Assembly: GCA_012103325.1 (NCBI GenBank)
Contig: WLWY01000001.1
Span: forward strand, 124,001-188,000
Origin: Alphaproteobacteria bacterium
Lineage (GTDB): Bacteria; Pseudomonadota; Alphaproteobacteria; UBA8366; GCA-2717185
Length of the DNA stretch: 64,000 nt
Reading direction: 5' to 3'
Positions 35,093 through 54,560 of this stretch are shown here, piece after piece (within the stretch, counting starts at the first letter, position 1; each line of letters begins with the position of its first letter). Both the position numbers and the translations under genes were made by a program. The notes under the pieces are model-generated. The model worked only from the letters and a program-made list of their open reading frames with translations. It searched no databases and was not told the origin of the DNA.

Positions 35093-35824
35093 CTATTGGT
35101 GTTTCAGTTTGATAGCAAGCGCCCTAAATTTATTAGCGTCAGCATGATCAGGGTTCAGATTGATGGCTTCGTCAAAATTGACGATAGCGTGGTCGTATTG
35201 GCCCTTCTTGGCATACGCTGCACCCCGGCTGCTGTAGAAGTCGGCATCATCGGGCCTGAGAGCGATCGCCTGGTCGTAATCCTGGATAGCGCGGTCGAAC
35301 TGGCCCTTCCAAAAATACGCGTTGCCCCGGTTGCTGTAGAAGTCGGCCTTATCGGACTTGAGAGCGATGGCTTGGTCAAAATCGTGGATAGCGCGGTCGA
35401 ACTGGCCCTTCTCGAAATGCGCGTTGCCTCGGTTGCTGTAGACGCTGGCATCATCGGGCTTGAGAGCGATGGCCTGGTCAAAATCGTGGATAGCGCGGTC
35501 GAACTGGCCCTTCATGGCATACGCATAACCCCGGCTGCTGTAGAAGTCAGCATCATCGGGCTTGAGAGCGATCGCCTGGTCGTAATCCTGGATAGCGCGG
35601 TCGAACTGGCCCTTCCCGAAATACGCATAGGCCCGGTTGCTGTAGGCGATGGCCAGATTGCTTTCCGCCAACCGGCCCGTTTCCATAAGCCAAGTGCAAG
35701 CGCTGATCTGCAAATCAGTATCGGCGGTGTTTCCTTGGCACAATCGTGCTTTGAACTCGAGTTCTTGCGCCTGCACGCCAGCCGCGAACCCGGCCAGAAG
35801 AAAAAACACCCATATCGCGCGCAT
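35093..35824 (-). CDS. Secreted tetratricopeptide repeat protein
   Basis: A 243-residue protein with a signal peptide (MRAIWVFFLLAGFAAGVQAQ) and five consecutive TPR units of 34 residues (NRAYAYFGKGQFDRAIQDYD, then DQAIALKPDD and similar). TPRs form a protein-binding solenoid, here probably in the periplasm. ATG 35824 is chosen for its GGGAGG site and the signal peptide. The repeats are almost identical at DNA level, see the repeat entry. Confidence 0.88.
   Translation of the reverse strand: MRAIWVFFLLAGFAAGVQAQELEFKARLCQGNTADTDLQISACTWLMETGRLAESNLAIAYSNRAYAYFGKGQFDRAIQDYDQAIALKPDDADFYSSRGYAYAMKGQFDRAIHDFDQAIALKPDDASVYSNRGNAHFEKGQFDRAIHDFDQAIALKSDKADFYSNRGNAYFWKGQFDRAIQDYDQAIALRPDDADFYSSRGAAYAKKGQYDHAIVNFDEAINLNPDHADANKFRALAIKLKHQ
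35232..35641. repeat. Four tandem 102-bp DNA repeats within the TPR gene
   Basis: The anchor CTGTAGAAGTCGG or a near match recurs at 35232, 35334, 35436, 35538 and 35640, an exact 102-base period of one TPR each. The near-identity at DNA level points to recent unequal duplication. Confidence 0.85.
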
Positions 35825-35912
35825 TAACGCCTCCCTAGACGAAAACCCGAAATCAAACCCAAAATTTACACGCATTCAGATATCTTTACAGCAGATTTGG
35901 GGTCAGGTTGAG

Positions 35913-36138: not shown

Positions 36139-37089
36139 ATGGCCGAACCACATCTTTCTTCGCCGACATTTGCAGGGTTTTCATTCGCGAGCCCCGAGCG
36201 TCTAGGGTCGGGCGATCTGGCCGTATTCGGCGTACCGCTTCATTCGGCACCACCACGCCGGCAAGGCTGTGCCGATGGCCCCTTAGCTGTCCGCGACACA
36301 TCACACGCGCTCATTCAGGGTTATCTGGATTCGCCGTCGCATACCGTTATGGACATGGACACAGGGCGCGCCAGACGATTGCGCGACCTGCAGGGATGCG
36401 TCGATCTTGGCGATCTTGACTGCAGTGGCCAGATCACGGGCACGGACATTGACCGGATCTCCGACCTTGTCGAAGCGATTGCAGCCGCGAAGGCGTGCCC
36501 GGTTCTGCTTGGCGGCGATAGCCGGTCGGTAGAAGGCCTCATACGGGGTCTCACGGCGGGTGGCTGTGAGGTCGGGCTGCTGGTCATTTCCAACAACCTC
36601 ATGCTCCCTGCGGTCAGCGGTGGCGAGCCCGTGGCACTGGCCGATCTCTTGGGAAGCCCCCCGCACGGGTCGGCCTGCCCCCTGCTCTGCGCCGGCACGA
36701 ATGGCTTGCAGTCCGGGACAGCATGGTCGCGTTTGAAGGACGCCGGAGGCCGGATCGTGGCGGCGGACGAGATTCACGATGCGTTTCCGGACGCCCTCGC
36801 GCGCATCAATACATTTTTGGCCGCGCATCAATCGATCGTCGTCTGCCTCGATCTCGAGGTCCTCGATTCCGGCCATGCCGCCGGCTCGCCCGCCGTCAAT
36901 GTCGGCGGGCTCTCCCCGGAACAACTCATCGCGTTGCTCTCGACAATCGAATTTTCAGGCTCGCTCGCGGGCGCTGCGGTCACAAATGTGGCGCCGATGC
37001 GAGACCCAAGGGGTCTTACCGAAGTGGCCGCGGCGGAATCTCTGCTGACGCTCCTCGGCAAACGTCTTTTCGTCGAGGTCGAGGCGTGA
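36139..37089 (+). CDS. Ureohydrolase (arginase/agmatinase) family protein 1, metal site degenerate
   Basis: A 316-residue member of the arginase/agmatinase fold, first of four in tandem. Fold marks survive: VLLGGDSRSVEG (GGDHS motif, His replaced by Ser), LLVISNNLML (where active enzymes have DAHxD; all three ligands lost), VVCLDLEVLDSG (the SxDxDxxDP region, with the second Asp replaced by Glu). Five of the six metal ligands are therefore absent or changed. It cannot bind the usual Mn pair and is probably a structural or regulatory subunit. GTG of the next gene overlaps its stop. Confidence 0.72.
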   Translation: MAEPHLSSPTFAGFSFASPERLGSGDLAVFGVPLHSAPPRRQGCADGPLAVRDTSHALIQGYLDSPSHTVMDMDTGRARRLRDLQGCVDLGDLDCSGQITGTDIDRISDLVEAIAAAKACPVLLGGDSRSVEGLIRGLTAGGCEVGLLVISNNLMLPAVSGGEPVALADLLGSPPHGSACPLLCAGTNGLQSGTAWSRLKDAGGRIVAADEIHDAFPDALARINTFLAAHQSIVVCLDLEVLDSGHAAGSPAVNVGGLSPEQLIALLSTIEFSGSLAGAAVTNVAPMRDPRGLTEVAAAESLLTLLGKRLFVEVEA

Positions 37090-38027
37090 CTCAAAACGCA
37101 AAAGCCGGCCAAGAAGGCGCGCTTCCGTTGCGTCCCGCCGCGACCTTCTTTGGCGCCCCCACCGGGGACATAGAAGATCTGGGCGACGGCAAAGTCGCTG
37201 TTGCCGGTGTCTACTGCGATCATTTTTCGGCAGGCGCCCCGGGCGGCAGATATGCCGCACGTCAAATCCGTTATACGAGTGCACCGGCCGCTCAAGCCGT
37301 ACCGTCATCGATAGACGATGTCATCGACCTTGGCGATTTCAACGTTTTCCCGCTGGAACCGGCGCGGACCGAAGCCGTCTTGGCCGAGCAATGCGAAAAA
37401 GTCATGGCGTCGGGGGCGCGTCTTTTATCGCTCGGCGGCGATTACAGCGTTTCACCGGCTCTCCTGAAGGGTATCGCGGCGGCGCGTGACGGTTCCATCG
37501 GATTGATCCGAATATCCAGCCGCTTGGATTTATCGCAACAAGATGCCGCGGAAACCGAGGGGCCAACGCGTCCCGCAACGACAGCGCGGATGGCAAATAT
37601 CGTGGCAGGCGGTCTTTCGAATATCGCGTTTCTCGGTACACGCGGCCCGTCGACCATCGAAGAAGTCCGGCGCACTTCGGCCTCGAAGGTGATACCCGCG
37701 GCAGGATTGGCGCACGAGATAACGCAATCCATGTCCGAGCTTCGCGCTTGGATGTCCCGCGCGGAGACGTTCTATCTCAGTCTCGATGCCGACGTGCTTG
37801 CGGCGCGATATGGGTCGACGGCCCTGCGCGGTGCCAGTGGGGGGCTTACCAAGGACCAAATTTTGAATGTGCTGGCGGCGCTCGAAGGAATGCCCTTCGT
37901 CGCCGCGGAATTGACCGGGCATCTTCCGAACCTCGACGTCGCGGGCCGTGCGACAACATCCGCCTTTGCGGAGATCGCTTTCAAGCTGGTCGAGCTCCTC
38001 CGCGCGGGTAATGCGTCATGCCATTGA
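37086..38027 (+). CDS. Ureohydrolase family protein 2, metal site degenerate
   Basis: A 313-residue arginase-fold protein. LLSLGGDYSVSPAL has Tyr for the first ligand His; GLIRISSRLDLS replaces DAHxD with SSRLD, keeping only its last Asp; FYLSLDADVLAARYGS keeps both Asp of SxDxD but has Ala-Ala for Asp-Pro. So half the ligands remain. It starts at GTG 37086 inside the stop of gene 1 (GTGA) and overlaps gene 3 by 10 bases. Catalysis of the usual type is unlikely. Confidence 0.75.
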   Translation: MTQNAKAGQEGALPLRPAATFFGAPTGDIEDLGDGKVAVAGVYCDHFSAGAPGGRYAARQIRYTSAPAAQAVPSSIDDVIDLGDFNVFPLEPARTEAVLAEQCEKVMASGARLLSLGGDYSVSPALLKGIAAARDGSIGLIRISSRLDLSQQDAAETEGPTRPATTARMANIVAGGLSNIAFLGTRGPSTIEEVRRTSASKVIPAAGLAHEITQSMSELRAWMSRAETFYLSLDADVLAARYGSTALRGASGGLTKDQILNVLAALEGMPFVAAELTGHLPNLDVAGRATTSAFAEIAFKLVELLRAGNASCH

Positions 38028-39007
38028 GATCAGCACCTCTGCCGAGAATGGCTGGCGACCTGACCTTTATGCGAACCCGCCGCGCGACGATCAATGATTT
38101 ACATCCAGATAATATCGCTGTCCTGGGCGCGCCGATCGAAGGCAATGTCGGCTTGAAAAGCGGTTGCCGCTTTGGGCCAGACGCACTCCGCGAAACCTCG
38201 GCCTATTTCGGCTGGCACGCCAACCCGCAGTTTTCCCGCCCGGTCGAGATCGATGCGCGTACGGCGGTCGATACCTCGTCGATCAACGATCGGGTTGTCG
38301 ACATCGGCGATGTTCCGCTGACGGGCGTGCCGAAGGCAGCGGCAATGACGGCCATCCGCGCCACCGTTCAAGACGTTCGGAGGCGCGGCGCATCGATAAT
38401 TTTGCTCGGCGGCGATGACGACATCGTCTTGCCTGCCGTGGCTGGCGGGGCAGTCGAGGAACCGTCGGCCTTTATACAGATTGGTGGGCGATTGCCCGGC
38501 AACATGGCTTCTGAATCGGAACCAACCAGTGCGTTGGAACCGCCGATCAAGCAATTGCTGGCCGCCGGAATTATTACACCGGGCGCGAGTATGGTAATTG
38601 CCGGAGCGCAAAACCCGGGTATCGAGTTTGCGCAACACTTTACCGCGTCGGGGGGCAAGATCCTGGGCCGCCGTGATGTATCGGAAATGACCGCCGCCGA
38701 GATGGCCGAGCTCGCGACGGATATCGCGCGCCGGGCGCCAACCTTGCAGGTCCATTTCGATCTCTCCGCTGTCAAACCCTCCTTACACGGTATGACCGAA
38801 ACCCCCAGCTTCGGGGGCCTCGCCGTGCCGACCATACGAACGCTTCTTGGTGCCATCGGGCAGGCACCGGTGTCCAATTTAGTCGTCACGGGTCTCAATC
38901 CCACCTTGAGCGGATTGAGCGTGGTCAAGACGGGCCAGCGGCTGCTGGTCACCACATTGCTCAGCTTCCTATACGGTAGGCTTGGACTGCAGGAGGCAGA
39001 CGGATGA
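38018..39007 (+). CDS. Ureohydrolase family protein 3, metal site degenerate
   Basis: A 329-residue arginase-fold protein. The first motif is IILLGGDDDIVLPAV (His to Asp), DAHxD is replaced by GGRLP in FIQIGGRLPGN, and SxDxDxxDP by QVHFDLSAVKPS, where only the first Asp is retained. The N-terminal fold segment IAVLGAPIEGNVGLKSGCRFGPDALRETS closely follows active family members, as does GLNPTLSGL near the end. It overlaps gene 2 by 10 bases and gene 4 by 4 bases (ATGA). Confidence 0.75.
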   Translation: MPLRSAPLPRMAGDLTFMRTRRATINDLHPDNIAVLGAPIEGNVGLKSGCRFGPDALRETSAYFGWHANPQFSRPVEIDARTAVDTSSINDRVVDIGDVPLTGVPKAAAMTAIRATVQDVRRRGASIILLGGDDDIVLPAVAGGAVEEPSAFIQIGGRLPGNMASESEPTSALEPPIKQLLAAGIITPGASMVIAGAQNPGIEFAQHFTASGGKILGRRDVSEMTAAEMAELATDIARRAPTLQVHFDLSAVKPSLHGMTETPSFGGLAVPTIRTLLGAIGQAPVSNLVVTGLNPTLSGLSVVKTGQRLLVTTLLSFLYGRLGLQEADG

Positions 39008-39981
39008 GACCACCGGCACCAACACTTTTCAACGCGCCGGCGGCTTCGGTCGAGGATCTGTCTCCCGGGACCGTTGGTGTGGTTGGCATGCCGATGGATT
39101 GGACTCATTCGAGCCGGATCGGCGCCCGCCACGGTCCCCGCGCACTCCGGCAGGCGACAACGGAACTGTCCAATAATCTCTTCAATGGGTCCGATGAGCG
39201 TTTCTACGACCCGGCGGATCAAGGATCGTGGCAGCGGCGGCCGGACGACAATCTCCTGGATTGCGGCGATGCTCCGATTGATCCGGCGTCCGTCGAACGG
39301 ACAACCGAATCCATTGCCGTCATGACGGAAGCGGTTCGCACGCGCGATGCGATCCCACTGGCGCTCGGTGGCGACCACTACAACGCGTTTCCCGCTTGCC
39401 TGGGATATTCGCGCGGGTTGGCAACGCGTCACCCCAACAGAAAATTTGGGTACATCCAAATTGACGGACATCTCGATTTTGCGGACCGCCTCGGCGCTTG
39501 GGGCACCCACAACCATGCGACAAATGGAAGGCGGATATCCGAACTACCTAATATCGAGCAAGCCAATATGGTCTGGATCGGCATCACCGCGTGGGTCGAT
39601 GGCAGCGAACTCGAGACGATCGAAAAGATGGGCGGCAAGGTTTTCTCGTCGACCGACGTCCACAATCTGGGCGCCGGAGACGTTGCGGATCGTGCCGTGC
39701 GCCATGCGACGCGCGGCTGCGAACATTTGTACCTTTCCTTGGATGTAGACGCGATGGATGCGGGATTTCTGCCTGGGACGGGTTCGGTTGTGCCCAGCGG
39801 CATTACACCGCGCCAGTATTGCCAAATGCTGGATGTCATCGCCGAAAAGGCACCGGTCGATGGCATTGATATAGCGGAGGTCGCGCCCTCTTTGGACCCG
39901 TCGGGACGGACCGAGCGCATCGCGGCGCATTTACTGTTCAGAGTGCTGCGGAACCGAATACTCGAACGCGAGGATTCTTAA
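39004..39981 (+). CDS. Ureohydrolase family protein 4, complete metal site (catalytic)
   Basis: A 325-residue arginase/agmatinase-family enzyme with all six metal ligands: His125 in LALGGDHYNAFP, Asp154, His156 and Asp158 in IDGHLDF, Asp247 and Asp249 in SLDVDAMDAGFLPGTG. It would hydrolyse a guanidino or amidino compound to urea and an amine. The HY (not HS) after GGD and the GTHNHATNG loop differ from arginase, and match broader agmatinase/guanidinase-type enzymes; the substrate is not predictable. Last and only intact member of a four-gene operon. Confidence 0.85.
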   Translation: MRPPAPTLFNAPAASVEDLSPGTVGVVGMPMDWTHSSRIGARHGPRALRQATTELSNNLFNGSDERFYDPADQGSWQRRPDDNLLDCGDAPIDPASVERTTESIAVMTEAVRTRDAIPLALGGDHYNAFPACLGYSRGLATRHPNRKFGYIQIDGHLDFADRLGAWGTHNHATNGRRISELPNIEQANMVWIGITAWVDGSELETIEKMGGKVFSSTDVHNLGAGDVADRAVRHATRGCEHLYLSLDVDAMDAGFLPGTGSVVPSGITPRQYCQMLDVIAEKAPVDGIDIAEVAPSLDPSGRTERIAAHLLFRVLRNRILEREDS

Positions 39982-40293: not shown

Positions 40294-42660
40294 CTACGGC
40301 AATTGCTGAGCGACCCCGGTCACGCCCGCCTTTACCAGCCGTTCGTATTCAGGCCCGTCCATGCCGAGCAGCCGCTCGAAGACTTCGGCGGAATGGGCGC
40401 CTTTGATCGGCGCGGCCCCGGTTACCACGGCCGGCGTTTTCGACAAGTGAAATGGAATGGCCGGTTGCGGCCAGATGCCGGCTTCCGGGTGGTCGACCAT
40501 GGCGATGCTGCCCCGGTCGCGATAAACGGAGTCGTGAGCAACCTCCAACCCATCGAGCACCGGTGCGGCGATCACCCCGGCCGCCGCCAGTTCGCCCGCC
40601 AAGGCATCGCGGTCCTTATCTGCGGTCCAGGCCGCAATCGCCTCATCCAGCGCATCCTCGTTGGCTTGCCGGTCGCCGGCGAACCTTTCGCGCCATTGCG
40701 GCTTTTTCGACACCCGGCACAACGCTTTCCATTGATCGTCTGTCGGCGCGGAAATCGCGATCCATCGATCCGCGCCGGCACAGGGATAGATGCCGTGCGG
40801 CGCGTAGGCCGCGTGGCGGTTGCCCATCGGGCCCGGGACCTTGCCGGTCAGCGCGTATTCCAGCCAGCGTTCGCCGATGAAGGTAAAGTTCGCCTCCTGC
40901 ATCGACATGTCGATGAATTGTCCTTCGCCGGTTCGGTCGCGGTGATAGAGCGCCAGCGCCAGGGCGGCGAACCCGTACAAGCCGGCGACGGCGTCGGGAT
41001 ACATCTGCCCCGAATTCATCGGCGTGCCGCCTTCGTAGCCGAGCAGCGCCGACATGCCCGATGCCGGTTCGATCGTGCCGCCGATGGCCGGCAGCGGCGA
41101 CCAGGGGCCGGTCTGCCCGAAGCCGGAAATGGAACAGAGGATGATGTCGTTCTTCACCGCGCGCAGATCGTCATAGGCGATGCCCAGCTTGCCCATGACG
41201 CGCGGCGAGAAGTTCTCGGCGACGAAGTCGGCCTCCGCCACCAGACGTTTGAAGGTCTCCACGCCTCCCGGTTCGGACAGTTCCAAGGTCACCGACTGCT
41301 TGTTCAGATTGACCGAGTTGAACAGCGCGTTGCAGTTCCACGGATGCTTCGCCGTTTCGCGATCCCGCAACGCCGAGGCAATCGGCGTTGTCGGCACGCC
41401 GCGCCACGAGTCCAGCCGCGTCCGCGATTCGACCAGAATGATTTCCGCGCCCATCAAACCCAAAAGCTCGGTCGCCAGCGACCCGGCCCAGGCCTGCGTC
41501 AGCACAACCCCGCGATAGCCCGCAAGTGGGCCGGCGTTGGAGCGCTTTGCCGGACCACTCGTTTTCGGCGGGCTGACTTCCGGTGGGTCGAGCATAGCTT
41601 TGGGACTCAAGCGCAATGGTGTCCGAGACATCTTGAACGGCGGCCCGGGATATTTGGCGCCGTCATAGTCGACGAAAAACTCCCGCGCTTCGAACTGCGG
41701 ATTCCGCGCCAGCTCATCCATCGTATAGGCGGGCCCGGCGACGGCGGGAATCTTCGACAGGGCGGCGAACAGATCGTCTTTAGTCCAATCCTGCATCGCC
41801 GCCTCGACCCGCTCGACGAACAGTTTCTTATTCGCCGCGTCGGCACGCGCGTGGTTGGTCTGCAGCCGCGGATCGTCGGCCAGATCGTCAAGGCCGAGCA
41901 AGCGCATCGCGCCCGCCCAGAAATGCGGCCGGGTCAGGGTCATGGCGAAATAACCGTCCTTGACCGGCACCGGGCCGGTTACGAAATCGACCGTGTCGCG
42001 CCGCGGCCAGGGCCGCTCTTCGTACAGGCTGCGCAGAATGCCCGGCGCCAGCGTCATCGCCAACACCTCGTCCATCGCAATGTCGATGCGCTGCCCGCCA
42101 CCGCCCGCGTGGCGATGGATCAAAGCGCACAGCACCGCACCAAACGCCATCGTGCCGGCTTGGTAGGCAGACTGATAGCCGCTCGACTTCAACGGCGACC
42201 GATCCGCCAACCCGTTAACCGATGCCCAACCCGACAGGGCGTCCGCGGTGAGTTCGTTGCCGGGCCAGTTCGCCCGCGCACCCGTCAGCCCGTGCGGTGT
42301 AATGGTGACGTGGATGGCCGCATCGTTACCGGCGGCATCGCGCATGTCGTCGATCCACTGACGATCCGCCGTGCCGGCAATCGCGGACTCGATGATGATA
42401 TCCACGTTCAAAAACAGCGCACGCCAATGCGGATCGTCTGGTTCATATTTGATCGATTGCCGATTGGCCAAAACGTAACGCGCCGGGATCGATTGACCAT
42501 CGCTGTCGAAAGGCACCAGGGCGCGCAACGGGTGCGGGTCGCGCATCACGACATCCGCCCCCGCATCCGCCAGCAGGCGCGCGCACCAGGCTCCTGCAGA
42601 ACTCGTCGAAAGATCGAGGACCCTCAGGCCCGCCAACGCTGTCGGAATATCGTCCTCCAA
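40294..42660 (-). CDS. CaiB/BaiF CoA-transferase, tandem two-domain form
   Basis: A 788-residue class III CoA-transferase made of two complete family domains (about 1-360 and 385-788). Starts ALAGLRVLDLSTSSAGAWCARLLADAGADV and GYRGVVLTQAWAGSLATELLGLMGAEIILVE show the duplication. In domain 1 the catalytic-Asp region is IDIAMDEVLAM and in domain 2 FIDMSMQEANF, so Glu may stand for Asp169 of formyl-CoA transferase. Second domain has the ENFSPRVMGKLGI segment. TTG 42660 is the start; it follows the SDR gene by 13 bases. Confidence 0.9.
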   Translation of the reverse strand: MEDDIPTALAGLRVLDLSTSSAGAWCARLLADAGADVVMRDPHPLRALVPFDSDGQSIPARYVLANRQSIKYEPDDPHWRALFLNVDIIIESAIAGTADRQWIDDMRDAAGNDAAIHVTITPHGLTGARANWPGNELTADALSGWASVNGLADRSPLKSSGYQSAYQAGTMAFGAVLCALIHRHAGGGGQRIDIAMDEVLAMTLAPGILRSLYEERPWPRRDTVDFVTGPVPVKDGYFAMTLTRPHFWAGAMRLLGLDDLADDPRLQTNHARADAANKKLFVERVEAAMQDWTKDDLFAALSKIPAVAGPAYTMDELARNPQFEAREFFVDYDGAKYPGPPFKMSRTPLRLSPKAMLDPPEVSPPKTSGPAKRSNAGPLAGYRGVVLTQAWAGSLATELLGLMGAEIILVESRTRLDSWRGVPTTPIASALRDRETAKHPWNCNALFNSVNLNKQSVTLELSEPGGVETFKRLVAEADFVAENFSPRVMGKLGIAYDDLRAVKNDIILCSISGFGQTGPWSPLPAIGGTIEPASGMSALLGYEGGTPMNSGQMYPDAVAGLYGFAALALALYHRDRTGEGQFIDMSMQEANFTFIGERWLEYALTGKVPGPMGNRHAAYAPHGIYPCAGADRWIAISAPTDDQWKALCRVSKKPQWRERFAGDRQANEDALDEAIAAWTADKDRDALAGELAAAGVIAAPVLDGLEVAHDSVYRDRGSIAMVDHPEAGIWPQPAIPFHLSKTPAVVTGAAPIKGAHSAEVFERLLGMDGPEYERLVKAGVTGVAQQLP

Positions 42661-44620: not shown

Positions 44621-45136
44621 CTAAAGCGACGTCGCCGCCCGTGCCGCCTGATCATACAGCCCCGACAGCGCGCGCAGTACCGATGCAGCCCGGCCGACCT
44701 CCTCGTTCTCGATCGAACCCAGCGCAGAAACCGTTTCAGTGAGGCACGCTTCGCGCACCTCGCGGTACCGCTGACACAGCGCGCGGCCTTCGTCGCTAGC
44801 GTCGTAATGCGCTTCCTTGCCCTGTTTCGTGGCCACCACGAACCCCGCCTTGACCAGCTTCTTGAGCGCGTAGTTGACCAGGTGGGTGTCCTCGACATTC
44901 AGGGTGAAGCAGATGTCAGCCAGCCGCTTGGCGCGGGTGCGGTGGTTCACCGTGTGCATGACCATGACGTCGAGGGCGCTGAGTTCCGGCGCACCGGCAG
45001 CGGCCATGCATCTTGTCATCCAGCGGTTGAAGGCGCTGGCCGACACCATCAGTCCGTACTCGAACTCCGACAGTTCGGCGGCGTCCTCCGCGACGAGATG
45101 CGCGGAGGAAACGATCTTCTTGCGCGGTGCGTTCAT
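44621..45136 (-). CDS. MarR-type winged-helix regulator
   Basis: A 171-residue winged-helix protein: LSALDVMVMHTVNHRTRAKRLADICFTLNVEDTHLVNYALKKLVKAGFVVATKQGKEAHYDASDEGRALCQRYREVRE is the DNA-binding domain with wing, framed by helices typical of MarR dimers. Its ATG (45136-45134) overlaps the stop of the fused hydantoinase gene (ATGA), so it is made with that enzyme and probably represses the operon. A palindrome lies at the operon promoter. Confidence 0.88.
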   Translation of the reverse strand: MNAPRKKIVSSAHLVAEDAAELSEFEYGLMVSASAFNRWMTRCMAAAGAPELSALDVMVMHTVNHRTRAKRLADICFTLNVEDTHLVNYALKKLVKAGFVVATKQGKEAHYDASDEGRALCQRYREVREACLTETVSALGSIENEEVGRAASVLRALSGLYDQAARAATSL

Positions 45137-48100
45137 TCCGCCGCCTCCGGCACCGGCTCGATCCGCGCCGCCGCCGGTCCGTATCCGCCGCCGGTCGGCG
45201 TCTGCAGTACGAAGACATCGCCCGGACCGACATGGGTGCCGTCCTGACCGGTCAGTTTCGTCACCGTGCCGTCGGCGCGCTCGACCCAGTTCTTGCCGCA
45301 CTGCCCCTGCTCGCCGCCGGCCATGCCGTAGGGCGGCACGATGCGGTGGTTCGACAGGATGACCAGGTCCATTTCTTCCAGGAACCGGATGCGGCGGTCC
45401 GAACCGGAGCCGCCGACATGCTTGCCCTTGCCGCCGGAGCCATGCCGCACAGAGAAGGTGTCGAGCATGACCGGGTAGCGCCATTCCAGCACTTCCGGAT
45501 CGGTCAGGCGGGTATTGGTCATGTGCGTGTGTACCGCAGACGTCCCGTCGAAATCCGGCCCCGCCCCGGACCCGCCGCAGACCGTTTCGTAATACTGGTA
45601 GCTGTCGTTGCCGAAGATGACGTTGTTCATCGTCCCCTGGCTCGCCGCCAATACACCAAGCGCGCCGTACAGCGTATCGGTCACGACCTGACTGGTTTCG
45701 GTATTCCCGGCCACGACGGCGGCGGGATATTCCGGCGCCAGCATCGAGCCTTTCGGGATGATGATGTTGATCGGCTTCAGGCAGCCCTCGTTCAACGGGA
45801 TCTGATCGTCGATCAAGGTGCGGAAGACATAGAGGACCGCCGACCGGCAGACCGCCGACGGCGCGTTGAAATTGGTCGGCCGCTGCGGGCTCGTACCCGT
45901 GAAGTCGACGGTCGCCTCGCGCTTGTCCTTGTCGAAGCTGATCTTGACCTTAACCACGCCGCCTTCGTCCAGCGGGTATTCGAACTGGCCGTCCTTCATC
46001 ACTTCAATGACACGCCGAACCTGCTCTTCCGCATTGTCCTGCACGTGCCGCATGTAGGCGTGCACCACGTCGAGACCGAACTGGTCGATCATCTTGTGGA
46101 CTTCGCGCACGCCCTTTTCGCCGGCGGCGATCTGCGCCTTGAGGTCGGCGACATTGTGATCCGGCTGACGGGCGGGATAGCGGCCCGACGCCAGATGCGC
46201 CCGCAACTTCTCTTCCAGGAATTCACCCGCATCGACCATCTTGAAGTTGTCGAAGAGAATGCCTTCTTCCTCCACCGTCGTACTGTCCGGCGGCGTCGAG
46301 CCCGGCGTGCGCCCGCCGATATCGGCATGGTGCCCCCGGCTGGCCACAAAGAAGAGAATGTCTTTGCCCGGCTGATCGAAGATCGGCGTGATCACTGTGA
46401 CATCCGGCAAATGCGTGCCGCCGTTATACGGTGCGTTCACCACATAGACGTCGCCCGGTTTCATCTTGCCCGCGTTCTCGGTCAGAACGGTCCGGATGGA
46501 TTCGCTCATCGAGCCAAGATGGATCGGGATATGCGGCGCGTTGGCCACCAGCATCCCTTCGGGGTTGAAGATCGCGCAGGAGAAGTCGAGCCGTTCCTTG
46601 ATGTTGACCGAGTAGGCCGTGTTCTCCAGCGTCACGCCCATCTGTTCGGCAATCGTCATGAACAGATTGTTGAAGACTTCGAGCATGACCGGGTCGCACT
46701 CGGTGCCGATGGCAAAGGTCCGTTGCATCGCGACAACGCGGTCCACAATGAGATGACCCTTCGGTGTCAGTTCCGCCTGCCAGCCCGGCTCGACGACGGT
46801 CGTTGCCGTCTGCTCGCGAATGATGGCCGGGCCCGCGACCGTGTTGCCGGGTTGCAATGTATCCCGATCGACGACCGGCGTGTCCCGCTCCTCACCGTCC
46901 ATATAGGCTTTCACGACGGCCAGTTTCTCGACCGCGCCGGGCGCACCGGCATCGTCGCGATCGGGCTCCGCCGCTTCCGCCATCAGGCCGATGCCTTCGA
47001 CGGCCGCGGCTTCGACGATCAGCCCTTTCTCCGGCATGATGAAGCCGTAATGCTGATGATGCGCCGCCTCGAAGCGCGCCGTCATTTCCTCCGGCGTGCC
47101 AAATTCGATGGCGTGTGGCGTATCGCTGCCGTCGTAGCGCAGATGCGCGCGGCGGACGACCTCGATCCGCTGGTCGGGAATGTCCTGTTCGCGCAGCTCC
47201 GCTTCGACCTCGCCAGCGAGCCCATCGAGGGTTGCGGCAAGGGATGGCATGACGGAATCGTCGAGGGTGACTTCGACGGCCTTTTCGCGCAGCGCCCGAA
47301 TGTCGGCGAGCCCCATGCCATAGGCGGACAGAACGCCCGCGAAGGGATGAACCAGAACCTTGGTCATCCCGAGCGCATCGGCGACGAGGCATGCGTGCTG
47401 TCCGCCCGCGCCACCGAAACAGTTGAGCGTGTACCCGGTCACGTCGTAGCCGCGCTGGACGGAGATCTTCTTGATCGCGTTGGCCATGTTCTCGACCGCG
47501 ATCTTCAGATAGCCGTCCGCGACCGCCGCCGGCGTGCGTTCGTCGCCAGTCGCTGCGTGGATTTCCGCCGCCAGGGCCGTGAACTTTTCGCGCACGACAT
47601 CGGCGTCGAGCGGCGCGTCCTGATTGGGTCCGAAGACTTGCGGAAAGAAATTCGGCTGCAGCTTGCCCAGCATGACGTTGCAGTCGGTGACGCTGAGCGG
47701 CCCGCCTCGCCGATAGCAGGCCGGCCCCAGGTTGGCGCCTGCCGACTCCGGTCCGACCCGGTAGCGCGAGCCGTCGAAGAAGCAGATCGAGCCACCGCCG
47801 GCCGCCACGGTATGGATCAGCATCATCGGCGCGCGCATGCGCACGCCGGCGACCTGGGTTTCGAAGGCGCGCTCGTACTCGCCGTCATAGTGCGCCACGT
47901 CGGTCGAGGTGCCGCCCATATCGAAGGAGATGATCTTGTCGAACCCGGCCTGCCCGGCGGTTTCCACCGCGCCGACGATACCGCCGGCGGGGCCGCTGAG
48001 GATCGCGTCCTTGCCCTGAAACAGGTTCGCATCGGTCAAGCCACCGCTCGACTGCATGAACATCAGGCGCGTGCCGCCGAGTTCCGAGGCGACCTGATCG

Positions 48101-48777
48101 ACATAGCGGCGCAGCAAGGGCGAGAGATAGGCGTCGACGACCGTGGTGTCGCCACGGCTGACGAGTTTCATCAAGGGACTGGTTTCGTGGCTCGTTGAAA
48201 TCTGCGTGAAGCCGATTTCACGCGCCAGCACCGCTGCCGCCGCTTCATGTTCGGTAAAGCGGTAGCCATGCATGAACACGATTGCGACCGACCGGATGCC
48301 ATCGTCGTATGCCGCTTGCAGCAGCGGCCGTGAGGCCTCGGCATCGAACGCGCGCAACACCTTCCCGTCCGCCATCACGCGTTCGTCGATTTCCACGACT
48401 TGCTCGTACAGCATTTCCGGCAGCACGATTTCGCGGTCGAACAGGCGCGGCCGGGTCTGGTAGCCGATGCGCAGCGCGTCGCGGAACCCGTCCGTCGTCA
48501 CCAGCAATGTCCGGTCGCCCTGTCGTTCGAGCAGCGCGTTGGTCGCGACCGTCGTGCCCATCTTGACGACTTCGATCTCCGAACCGGGAATGGGCGTGCC
48601 GGCCGCGACACCCATGAGGTCGCGGATACCTTGCACCGCCGCGTCGCGATAGTTCTCCGGATTCTCAGACAGCAGCTTGTGCGTCACCAGCGCGCCGTCG
48701 GGCCGCTGCGCCACGATATCGGTGAACGTTCCCCCCCGGTCGATCCAGAACTGCCAGCGCGCGTCGGTCTCAGCCAT
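45133..48777 (-). CDS. Fused hydantoinase A-hydantoinase B (5-oxoprolinase-like)
   Basis: A 1214-residue fusion. The HyuA half (about 1-690) has the phosphate loop WIDRGGTFTDIVAQRPDG and SFDMGGTSTDVAHY; the HyuB half begins near GTECDPVMLEVFNNLFMTIAEQMGVTLENTAYSVNIKERLDFSCAIFNPEG and includes ASRGHHADIGGRTPGSTPP. This is the 5-oxoprolinase (ATP-hydrolysing) layout, opening pyroglutamate to glutamate; a different cyclic amide is possible. ATG 48777 follows GGGGAGTG and starts the conserved MAETDARWQFWIDRGGTF. Confidence 0.93.
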   Translation of the reverse strand: MAETDARWQFWIDRGGTFTDIVAQRPDGALVTHKLLSENPENYRDAAVQGIRDLMGVAAGTPIPGSEIEVVKMGTTVATNALLERQGDRTLLVTTDGFRDALRIGYQTRPRLFDREIVLPEMLYEQVVEIDERVMADGKVLRAFDAEASRPLLQAAYDDGIRSVAIVFMHGYRFTEHEAAAAVLAREIGFTQISTSHETSPLMKLVSRGDTTVVDAYLSPLLRRYVDQVASELGGTRLMFMQSSGGLTDANLFQGKDAILSGPAGGIVGAVETAGQAGFDKIISFDMGGTSTDVAHYDGEYERAFETQVAGVRMRAPMMLIHTVAAGGGSICFFDGSRYRVGPESAGANLGPACYRRGGPLSVTDCNVMLGKLQPNFFPQVFGPNQDAPLDADVVREKFTALAAEIHAATGDERTPAAVADGYLKIAVENMANAIKKISVQRGYDVTGYTLNCFGGAGGQHACLVADALGMTKVLVHPFAGVLSAYGMGLADIRALREKAVEVTLDDSVMPSLAATLDGLAGEVEAELREQDIPDQRIEVVRRAHLRYDGSDTPHAIEFGTPEEMTARFEAAHHQHYGFIMPEKGLIVEAAAVEGIGLMAEAAEPDRDDAGAPGAVEKLAVVKAYMDGEERDTPVVDRDTLQPGNTVAGPAIIREQTATTVVEPGWQAELTPKGHLIVDRVVAMQRTFAIGTECDPVMLEVFNNLFMTIAEQMGVTLENTAYSVNIKERLDFSCAIFNPEGMLVANAPHIPIHLGSMSESIRTVLTENAGKMKPGDVYVVNAPYNGGTHLPDVTVITPIFDQPGKDILFFVASRGHHADIGGRTPGSTPPDSTTVEEEGILFDNFKMVDAGEFLEEKLRAHLASGRYPARQPDHNVADLKAQIAAGEKGVREVHKMIDQFGLDVVHAYMRHVQDNAEEQVRRVIEVMKDGQFEYPLDEGGVVKVKISFDKDKREATVDFTGTSPQRPTNFNAPSAVCRSAVLYVFRTLIDDQIPLNEGCLKPINIIIPKGSMLAPEYPAAVVAGNTETSQVVTDTLYGALGVLAASQGTMNNVIFGNDSYQYYETVCGGSGAGPDFDGTSAVHTHMTNTRLTDPEVLEWRYPVMLDTFSVRHGSGGKGKHVGGSGSDRRIRFLEEMDLVILSNHRIVPPYGMAGGEQGQCGKNWVERADGTVTKLTGQDGTHVGPGDVFVLQTPTGGGYGPAAARIEPVPEAAE

Positions 48778-48792
48778 GGTGGAACACTCCCC

Positions 48793-48809
48793 AATTGAAT
48801 TTTTCAATT
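48793..48809. promoter_or_regulatory. Palindromic operator in divergent hyuAB/CMD promoter
   Basis: AATTGAA (48793-48799), 3-base spacer, TTCAATT (48803-48809): a perfect 17-base site 16 bases upstream of the fused hydantoinase start. This fits the size and symmetry of MarR-type operators; the MarR gene is coupled to that operon. Confidence 0.7.
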
Positions 48810-54114: not shown

Positions 54115-54520
54115 GGGCCAGACGGTCGGATGGCCGCCTTTCGGCGCAGGCAACTGCTTCGGGGGGAGGAAAGTCCGGGCTCCACGGAAGCACGGTGCCG
54201 GATAACGTCCGGCGGGGGCGACCCTAGGGAAAGTGCAACAGAAAGCATACCGCCCGCCATCGCTTCGGCAACGGCAGGTAAGGGTGAAAAGGTGCGGTAA
54301 GAGCGCACCGCGCTCCCGGCAACGGGAGCGGCATTGTAAACCCCACCGGGAGCAAGACCAGATAGGGGCGGCGTTCCGGGGCTTCGGCTTCGGAAGGCAC
54401 GTTTTCGGGCTGCCGCCCGGGTAGGTCGCGCGAGGCGTCCGGTAACGGGCGTCCCAGATGAATGGCCATCGAACGCCCTAGCGGGCGGGAACAGAACCCG
54501 GCTTACAGACCGTCTGGCAC
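54115..54520 (+). ncRNA. rnpB: RNase P RNA, bacterial class A
   Basis: The catalytic RNA that matures tRNA 5' ends. It has the conserved GAGGAAAGTCCGGGCTCC, AGGGAAAGTGCAACAGAAAG and, near the end, ACAGAACCCGGCTTACAGACC blocks. The terminal P1 helix is perfect for 11 pairs: GCCAGACGGTC (54117-54127) with GACCGTCTGGC (54508-54518). It is about 405 nt, the normal class A length. Confidence 0.96.
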
Positions 54521-54560
54521 TTATACCGAGGGAGGCGTCTGCGAAATTTGTAGATCGGTA

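Follow-up and report, generated by a model that had tools for sequence, protein, structure and literature searches.

The window, a 64,000-nucleotide stretch of alphaproteobacterial DNA, carries a cassette of four adjoining ureohydrolase (amidinohydrolase) genes, the last intact and the first three stripped of catalytic residues. Their products, m1 to m4, are probably the subunits of a single hetero-oligomeric enzyme in which m4 would be catalytic and m1, m2 and m3 structural, with m3 capping the m4 site. The directly established evidence comprises the four ortholog groups, their order, overlaps and co-occurrence, the selection acting on them, the loss of residues, and the conservation of m3 away from its dead site.

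Four overlapping genes in a fixed order

We observed that positions 36139–39981 of the window are occupied by four overlapping genes of the PF00491 (ureohydrolase) family, all on the plus strand. The first three encode the non-catalytic paralogs m1 (36139..37089, 316 aa; E 2e-24, 87 bits), m2 (37086..38027, 313 aa with a GTG start; E 2e-29, 103.4 bits) and m3 (38018..39007, 329 aa; E 3.5e-22, 79.6 bits). The fourth, m4 (39004..39981, 325 aa; E 4.1e-59, 200.8 bits), is intact, has its six ligands in GGDH, DGHLD and SLDVD, and sits just beyond the stretch 36139–39007 described in the first-pass annotation. All four are whole-domain matches above the curated cut-off of 22 bits. For m2, the start at ATG 36723 in the mechanically listed reading frame was replaced by GTG 37086. 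Four bases are shared by m1 and m2 (GTGA, 37086..37089) and by m3 and m4 (ATGA, 39004..39007), and gene pairs overlap or nearly touch at further loci too. The pattern is not due to chance, given the match of all four genes to PF00491 (E 4e-59 to 4e-22) and its recurrence at 21 related loci.

The order m1, m2, m3, m4 was found at all 21 of these loci, within the limits set by contig ends, and at 18 of them the four genes are all present and open. Ruegeria, Shimia, Pelagimonas and a Comamonadaceae MAG are among the carriers. Every genome with an m4 of this clade (7/7) also carries m1–m3, with one genome having the set divided over two contig ends, and strong matches to m1, m2 and m4 as queries were confined to genomes holding the whole set. 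Within the taxonomic order of the window, the m4 clade occurred in 3 of 42 genomes, the same three that carry m1 (3 of 43 searched). Thus, no close relative was found to retain m4 while lacking m1–m3; such a relative had been proposed in the first-pass annotation as a refutation of its interpretation. A fourth member of the genus, G016 (87% complete), has neither m1 nor the m4 clade. A plasmid search with the roseobacter m3 gave no match. Co-occurrence and correlated distances would also be expected from a shared operon alone.

Ligand loss differs among m1, m2 and m3

We read the metal ligands by alignment to the intact m4 (H125, D154, H156, D158, D247 and D249). At these positions, the residues are H,D,H,D,D,D in m4, S,S,N,M,D,E in m1, Y,S,R,D,D,D in m2, which so keeps three Asp ligands, and D,G,R,P,D,S in m3. 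The alignment reproduced all the motif readings of the first-pass annotation, in which each of the three members was said to lose ligands differently. The GGD noted there is itself not a ligand; the His that follows it is, and this His is lost in m1, m2 and m3 of the window. The complete HDHDDD set is present in 20 of the 20 m4 copies that cover all six positions, as in a catalytically competent ureohydrolase, while m1, m2 and m3 lack it everywhere, the best dead copy (m2 of locus L025) having four of six. The first Asp of SxDxD is kept in 64/64 copies of m1–m3. None of these 64 retains Glu 292 of m4, which we take, by analogy with Glu277 of arginase, to bind guanidinium; 63 have Gly or Asn, and in the remaining copy the position is lost to a contig end.

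Could catalysis persist in some of the degenerate members, at a metal site that is mononuclear or otherwise changed, or by other chemistry? The best candidate is m2, which holds D158, D247 and D249 at all nine non-roseobacter loci and at L025 has the first His as well. However, the 12 scored roseobacter m2 copies are down to one ligand of six with gene order and neighbours unchanged, and the Glu at 292 is found in 0/21 m2 copies, so we consider residual catalysis improbable.

Purifying selection and an apparently separate origin from MetCb

In the phylogeny, m1, m2, m3 and m4 each form a clade of their own (100% bootstrap; support 100/99 to 100/100), and the branches joining the four groups are too weak (61/85) to bear on a duplication of m4 inside the cassette as the source of m1–m3. 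Median dN/dS was 0.209 for m1, 0.205 for m2, 0.155 for m3 and 0.082 for m4; hence m1–m3 evolve faster than m4, and their sequences indicate that they are under purifying selection. The comparison of substitution rates suggested in the first-pass annotation therefore gave ratios far below 1, and its view that these genes are under selection rather than dying is supported. Its description of the frames as full-length applies to the genus of the window and fails in roseobacters, where m1 is shortened to ∼256 aa and m2 to ∼224 aa.

That m1–m3 are merely decaying duplicates without function might be argued from their lost catalytic residues, their faster evolution and one MAG locus (L028) with broken m2 frames, though m4 is broken there too. 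Against this, dN/dS did not exceed 0.38 in any usable roseobacter pair, the frames stay open down to 24–43% identity to the window copies, and each of m1, m2 and m3 is a well-supported clade. Neither ratios near 1 nor frequent loss of these genes next to an intact m4 was observed. We rejected decay on the dN/dS values and the clades, and give it almost no chance of being right.

The known inactive ureohydrolase subunit, MetCb of metformin hydrolase, is sister to MetCa (100/93) and lies outside the m1, m2 and m3 clades; none of the three groups belongs to a MetCb clade. Descent of m1–m3 from this beta subunit was thus rejected on the tree. As MetCb branches with its own alpha subunit, the pseudo-subunits of the cassette look independent of it in origin.

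Conserved arm and L2 loop in m3

Each of m1–m3 has conserved segments of its own. In m3, the dead active-site loop drifts, while two segments elsewhere are well conserved, namely the core of an N-terminal arm (residues 7–19; 38036..38074, plus strand) and an L2 segment (residues 60–88; 38195..38281, plus strand). In our alignment, the arm corresponds to the region of MetCb Tyr22 and L2 to that of MetCb Phe82. Over nine deep lineages, conservation was 0.70 in the arm and 0.84 in L2 but 0.35 in the block of the dead site, values to be read in the knowledge that retrieval of the loci by sequence patterns had in part selected for the conserved segments. In 14 loci not fetched through the arm, its conservation was 0.92, and in a control of four loci retrieved only by the pattern outside L2, L2 reached 0.91 against 0.64 overall. 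A C-terminal part of m3 matches L2 roughly in conservation in some subsets, and in the 14 loci with the L2 pattern only, a second stretch outside L2 reached up to 0.96 and L2 0.95.

Structure models and family assignment

The AlphaFold2 model of the window m2 (pLDDT 84.4, pTM 0.87) matched guanidinopropionase with a VIA Z of 33.4. The m3–m4 read-through chain, modelled from a fused-chain alignment of 14 rows, gave a pTM of 0.53; its two domains are therefore not confidently placed, and the model, intended to probe contact between them, lent that contact no support. In this fused model, from locus L019, the m4 half was structurally closest to guanidinase (Z 30.7), and the m3 half matched E. coli agmatinase (7lox, Z 26.8), the one of the 50 VIA matches listed that fell on this half, the others falling on the m4 half. 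The three-layer alpha/beta fold was seen in the predicted structures of the window m2 and of both L019 halves.

We compared m4 with the NCBIfam equivalogs, and it scored below the cut-off for agmatinase (128.2 against 174.3 bits), hutG (125.2 against 229.15) and arginase (107 against 227.6). Among solved structures, its best sequence match was 9fek (E 6.4e-31), followed by 7esr (E 1.2e-29), both guanidine hydrolases named 'agmatinase 2' in the PDB. The guanidine hydrolase (guanidinase) of Synechocystis and Nitrospira is thus nearest to m4 by both sequence and structure among solved structures; it is not known to be encoded by more than one gene. As the best profile match to m4 is just 144 bits, the guanidinase substrate is not transferable to m4.

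Neighbouring genes

In the window, the cassette is flanked by a TPR gene and a CoA-transferase, and at locus L030 by an IclR-like gene and an uncharacterised protein. Neither hypA nor hypB is among the flanking genes of these two loci. No riboswitch family reached its gathering score, as would point to guanidine-type regulation, in the window or in L020, L024, L026, L030 and L031. In roseobacters, the cassette may serve a catabolic pathway for a cationic guanidino compound, whose parts would be a PotD-type importer, the ureohydrolase, an aldehyde dehydrogenase, a CoA-transferase and a citryl-CoA-lyase-like enzyme. The accessory protein of the transporter-linked clusters had no match in G000, G015, G016 and G017 in a search run without a positive control, so this pathway is not transferable to the genus of the window. 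Citryl-CoA-lyase-like proteins do occur in that genus, merely 27–39% identical.

A probable mixed ureohydrolase with three pseudo-subunits

The closest precedent is offered by the metformin hydrolase (MefH, MetCaCb or MfmAB) and the dimethylguanidine hydrolase DmgH of Aminobacter and Pseudomonas. In 2024, metformin hydrolase was reportedly presented as the first ureohydrolase of mixed composition and as one that adapted to the drug recently. Like m1–m4, it is encoded by ureohydrolase genes lying side by side, one carrying the full ligand set and the other lacking it. Its inactive subunit is without metal, yet required for activity (PMC11399263, PMC11271267), and Tyr22 and Phe82 of MetCb line the MetCa pocket (PMC11271267; PMC11399263). 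Inactive segments thus reach the active site in metformin hydrolase, as m3 may do in the cassette. The two systems differ in several respects. Metformin hydrolase combines a catalytic alpha and an inactive beta subunit as alpha2beta4 from two genes, whereas the cassette has four genes and three dead kinds; the nickel chaperone genes hypB and hypA lie directly upstream in the metformin operon and are not beside the cassette; and MetCb has Asn at both SxDxD Asp positions, of which m1–m3 keep the first Asp. Trypanosome prozymes, in which a dead paralog activates its catalytic partner, have unrelated folds and a single dead partner rather than three. Plant arginase, guanidinobutyrase and guanidinopropionase are homo-oligomers in which every subunit is identical and catalytic, unlike m1–m4. 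In plant arginase, the ligand is held by the L2 loop of the neighbouring subunit, an arrangement that the author of that study also proposes for certain prokaryotic enzymes (PMC7370999).

In the complex proposed here, m4 would be the sole catalytic subunit, its binuclear metal site hydrolysing a guanidino-type substrate, and m1, m2 and m3 would replace copies of m4 in the typical trimer or hexamer of the family. Most probably, m3 would lend its N-terminal arm and L2 loop to the entrance of the active site in m4, much as MetCb does with its own segments for MetCa. The physical complex, its stoichiometry, the capping role of m3 and the substrate class are what we infer in this model. Four kinds of subunit suggest no obvious ratio that fits a trimer or a hexamer, which counts against a complex. 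Further points against the model are the low pTM of the read-through chain, the lack of nickel chaperone genes next to the cassette, and the C-terminal part of m3 that rivals L2 in conservation.

Alternatively, m1–m3 could be independent non-catalytic proteins that sense the substrate, regulate m4 or the operon, or help to deliver metal, and that share the operon without being stable subunits. The segments conserved separately in each of them, the strong shortening of the roseobacter m1 and m2, and the unplaced domains of the fused m3–m4 model, whose contact the sequences do not prove, would all agree with this. However, enzymes of this family usually assemble as trimers or hexamers, and the sole studied inactive operon relative is a subunit (PMC11271267, PMC11399263), while the transporter-linked clusters already contain a regulator of their own, which is IclR-like at L030. 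Independent roles are therefore unlikely, though deserving of some weight. Distinct positions in one complex are favoured by the way in which the genes always occur together, in one order and overlapping, and by the example of metformin hydrolase. Of the separate, specialised roles proposed in the first-pass annotation, the individuality of each member is borne out by its own conserved segments, whereas their separateness seems less likely than places in a shared complex.

Taken jointly, the reading would be that of a ureohydrolase built from four components, of which one is catalytic and the others are three different, obligate pseudo-subunits. It would have evolved apart from metformin hydrolase, its active site would be completed in trans by the m3 arm and L2, the cassette would have passed between distant lineages, and roseobacters would use it to catabolise a cationic guanidino compound. 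We find this whole plausible, but somewhat short of probable.

The cassette suggests that pseudo-subunits arose separately within the same family, with three kinds per operon, and longer ago, judging from the present occurrence of each group in distant bacteria. It would provide a natural series for how an enzyme oligomer turns subunits into non-catalytic partners, and it flags a catabolic cluster in the cultured marine bacteria Ruegeria, Pelagimonas and Shimia.

Organization of the four-gene cassette

The window carries four consecutive ureohydrolase (PF00491) genes, m1 (36139-37089), m2 (37086-38027, with a GTG start), m3 (38018-39007) and m4 (39004-39981), all on the plus strand and arranged head to tail with successive overlaps of 4, 10 and 4 bases. 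Each matches PF00491 over nearly the whole domain. The region described in the first-pass annotation corresponds to the degenerate members m1–m3, and the intact copy, m4, lies directly 3' of them. Each of m1–m3 is 24–25% identical to m4. The genome has one more ureohydrolase family member, on a separate contig.

Upstream of the cassette are Rieske oxygenase genes, a glutathione transferase gene and, just upstream of m1 and divergent from it, the gene for a TPR protein (35093-35875, minus strand) whose five repeats are almost identical. Downstream are CoA-transferase and dehydrogenase genes, including that of a 788-aa protein with two family III CoA-transferase (PF02515) stretches on the opposite strand (40294-42660, minus). 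A 1224-aa fusion of hydantoinase A and B (oxoprolinase type) is encoded at 45133-48807 (minus), and a class A bacterial RNase P RNA at 54118-54521 (plus; 308.6 bits).

Metal ligands are lost in a member-specific manner

m4 has all six metal ligands (H125, D154, H156, D158, D247 and D249). At these positions the window copies have S, S, N, M, D, E (m1), Y, S, R, D, D, D (m2) and D, G, R, P, D, S (m3), so that the earlier motif readings were correct, the first ligand being the His following GGD. We scored 64 degenerate copies (21 m1, 21 m2 and 22 m3) from the window and 21 fetched loci, leaving out the m1 of L023, missing at a contig end, and the broken m2 of L028. D154 was gone in 64/64, H156 in 63/64 and the His after GGD in 62/64. 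The second Asp of SxDxD is replaced by Ser/Thr in all 22 m3 copies, and m2 retains three Asp at 9/9 loci from outside the roseobacters and a single one in the 12 roseobacter copies that were scored. From these counts, the observation that each member loses its ligands differently is confirmed, and the losses are largely conserved inside each member.

The first Asp of SxDxD was present in all 64 copies, and this retention suggests a structural use. Glu 292 of m4, which by position corresponds to the guanidinium-binding Glu277 of arginase, was retained in no degenerate copy (Gly/Asn in 63; one copy stops at a contig end). The conserved His 171 of m4 is also absent from m1–m3, at a site where the alignment is gappy.

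Distribution of the cassette

The 21 loci were retrieved by scanning genome contigs with an alignment of m3, and m3 is therefore present at all of them by construction. With profiles of each member, the order m1>m2>m3>m4 was found at 21/21 loci, as far as visible, and all four genes were present and open in 18. L022 and L023 are truncated by contig ends. In L028, from a Sulfitobacter MAG, the frames of both m2 and m4 are broken (L028:7328-9872), either because the entire cassette is decaying or through errors of assembly. Judged by length, L019 and L022 are the contigs already seen in the genus mates G015 and G017, and the profile scores of L031 and L032 are identical. The cassette is carried by Ruegeria, Shimia and Pelagimonas, among others, and by MAGs assigned to Comamonadaceae and Desulfuromonadales; the Desulfuromonadales case rests on a 5.8-kb contig that may be misbinned.

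Searches with m1, m2 and m4 are free of the m3-fetching bias. Strong m1 matches occurred in 3/43 genomes of the order, and 2/385 genomes of the class matched m2 at 1e-20. Strong m4 matches (E below 1e-140) occurred in 3/42 genomes of the order, 1/398 of the phylum, 3/394 in the family of G787 and 1/7 in that of G327; these samples overlap and give seven distinct genomes (G000, G015, G017, G327, G787, G851 and G936). m1–m3 were found in all seven and adjoin m4 in six; in G017 the set is divided over two contig ends. The next best m4 matches, at about 1e-59 and below, are other ureohydrolases, and the two strongest loci of these, L060 and L061, are without m1–m3. L061:7115-9117 is a tandem of two such frames, both with motifs intact-looking by eye; its first frame is among the nearest m4 relatives outside the cassette clade (E 2.9e-55). 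A further genus mate, G016 (87% completeness), had neither m1 nor clade m4. Thus, an intact m4 lacking its degenerate neighbours was not seen in close relatives.

Phylogeny and selection

A maximum-likelihood tree built from 64 proteins placed each of m1, m2, m3 and m4 in a single clade of its own (100/99 to 100/100), with weak support on the branches linking these groups. MetCb, the inactive beta subunit of metformin hydrolase, was sister to the catalytic alpha subunit MetCa (100/93), outside the m1–m4 clades and on a long end branch.

We calculated pairwise NG86 dN/dS with our own script for 12 roseobacter-type loci, dropping L032 as a near copy of L031. Over usable pairs (dS between 0.05 and 2), which are not independent, the median was 0.209 for m1 (maximum 0.325; 64/66 pairs usable), 0.205 for m2 (0.281; 53/55), 0.155 for m3 (0.378; 62/66) and 0.082 for m4 (0.170; 58/66). 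In the window's genus, the pair L019–L022 gave about 0.22 (m1), 0.21 (m2) and 0.19 (m3), and synonymous sites were at or near saturation in pairs including the window. The proposal that m1–m3 are under selection is supported by these ratios, which lie far below 1. Distance matrices of the four members also correlate (r 0.74–0.87; eight deep lineages), as a shared operon alone would give.

Fold of the degenerate members

The AlphaFold2 model of the window m2 is a confident ureohydrolase fold (pLDDT 84.4, pTM 0.87), with VIA Z scores of 33.4 against guanidinopropionase and 32.3 against a metformin hydrolase chain. In L019, m3 and m4 are in the same frame, and translation past the stop yields a single chain, whose model (pTM 0.53) does not place the domains confidently relative to each other. 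Structural matches were guanidinase for its m4 half (Z 30.7) and E. coli agmatinase for its m3 half (Z 26.8 with an rmsd of 3.5 over 276 residues). In roseobacters, m1 and m2 reach only about 256 and 224 aa, and this m2 is without most of the stretch from the DxHxD block to the SxDxD block. The normal fold described in the first-pass annotation is therefore not found throughout.

Conserved segments and a possible role of m3

We measured conservation as the mean majority fraction over nine deep lineages. In m3, the L2 segment (residues 60–88) scored 0.84 and the N-terminal arm (core residues 7–19) 0.70, against 0.58 overall, and the dead DxHxD plus active-site-loop block 0.35. In m4, the corresponding L2 segment scored just 0.43, DxHxD 0.92 and the active-site loop 0.86. 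Because the fetch patterns lay within the m3 arm and L2, we used as control the subsets holding one pattern: L2 scored 0.91 versus 0.64 overall at four loci with the arm pattern alone, and the arm 0.92 versus 0.72 at 14 loci with the L2 pattern alone. The C-terminal part of m3 is also highly conserved (best 29-residue window outside L2, 0.82 over nine lineages). Conservation peaks in the loop following SxDxD in m1 (0.79) and in the first strand and helix in m2 (0.69).

According to PMC11271267, Tyr22 and Phe82 of MetCb line the MetCa substrate pocket. Aligned to m3, these residues fall on the arm and on L2, respectively. In plant arginases, as PMC7370999 describes, the ligand is held by loop L2 from the neighbouring subunit. 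On these grounds, m3 would cap the m4 site.

Gene neighbourhoods at other loci

Flanks were inspected at 8/21 loci. The upstream flanks of L020, L024, L026, L030 and L031 contain, by eye, ABC transporter genes together with one for a binding protein resembling PotD; among the flanks inspected, L021, L025 and the window were without this context. In L030, profile matches support a solute-binding protein and a PotB-like permease, a regulator of the IclR type, an aldehyde dehydrogenase and a family III CoA-transferase, and they include a citryl-CoA-lyase model that exceeded its cut-off. L026 has an HMGL-like gene farther downstream. A conserved protein of 231–251 aa is encoded downstream of the cassette at L030:9868-10560, L031:9880-10572, L023:2942-3661, L024:8846-9553 and L026:10405-11157. 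Its C-terminal block DHRHEDIGWRPVLE is invariant across the five aligned rows, and the L030 copy had no match in Pfam or NCBIfam. The substrate may differ between transporter-linked and other settings.

Comparison with metformin hydrolase

The interpretation in the first-pass annotation is supported in part. As the best reading, we consider it fairly probable that the cassette encodes a mixed complex of one catalytic (m4) and three structural subunits (m1–m3). Its mode of action would be that of metformin hydrolase, an alpha2beta4 enzyme with metal in alpha only, in which alpha without beta is inactive (PMC11399263, PMC11271267 and PMC11647477). The excerpted text of PMC11271267 reports 56 gene pairs, from a search aimed at such pairs, and does not mention four-gene cassettes; titles and starts of abstracts in the open PubMed Central literature yielded no description of one either. 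The cassette lies outside the metformin hydrolase clade; it would be a distinct and larger version of this type of system.
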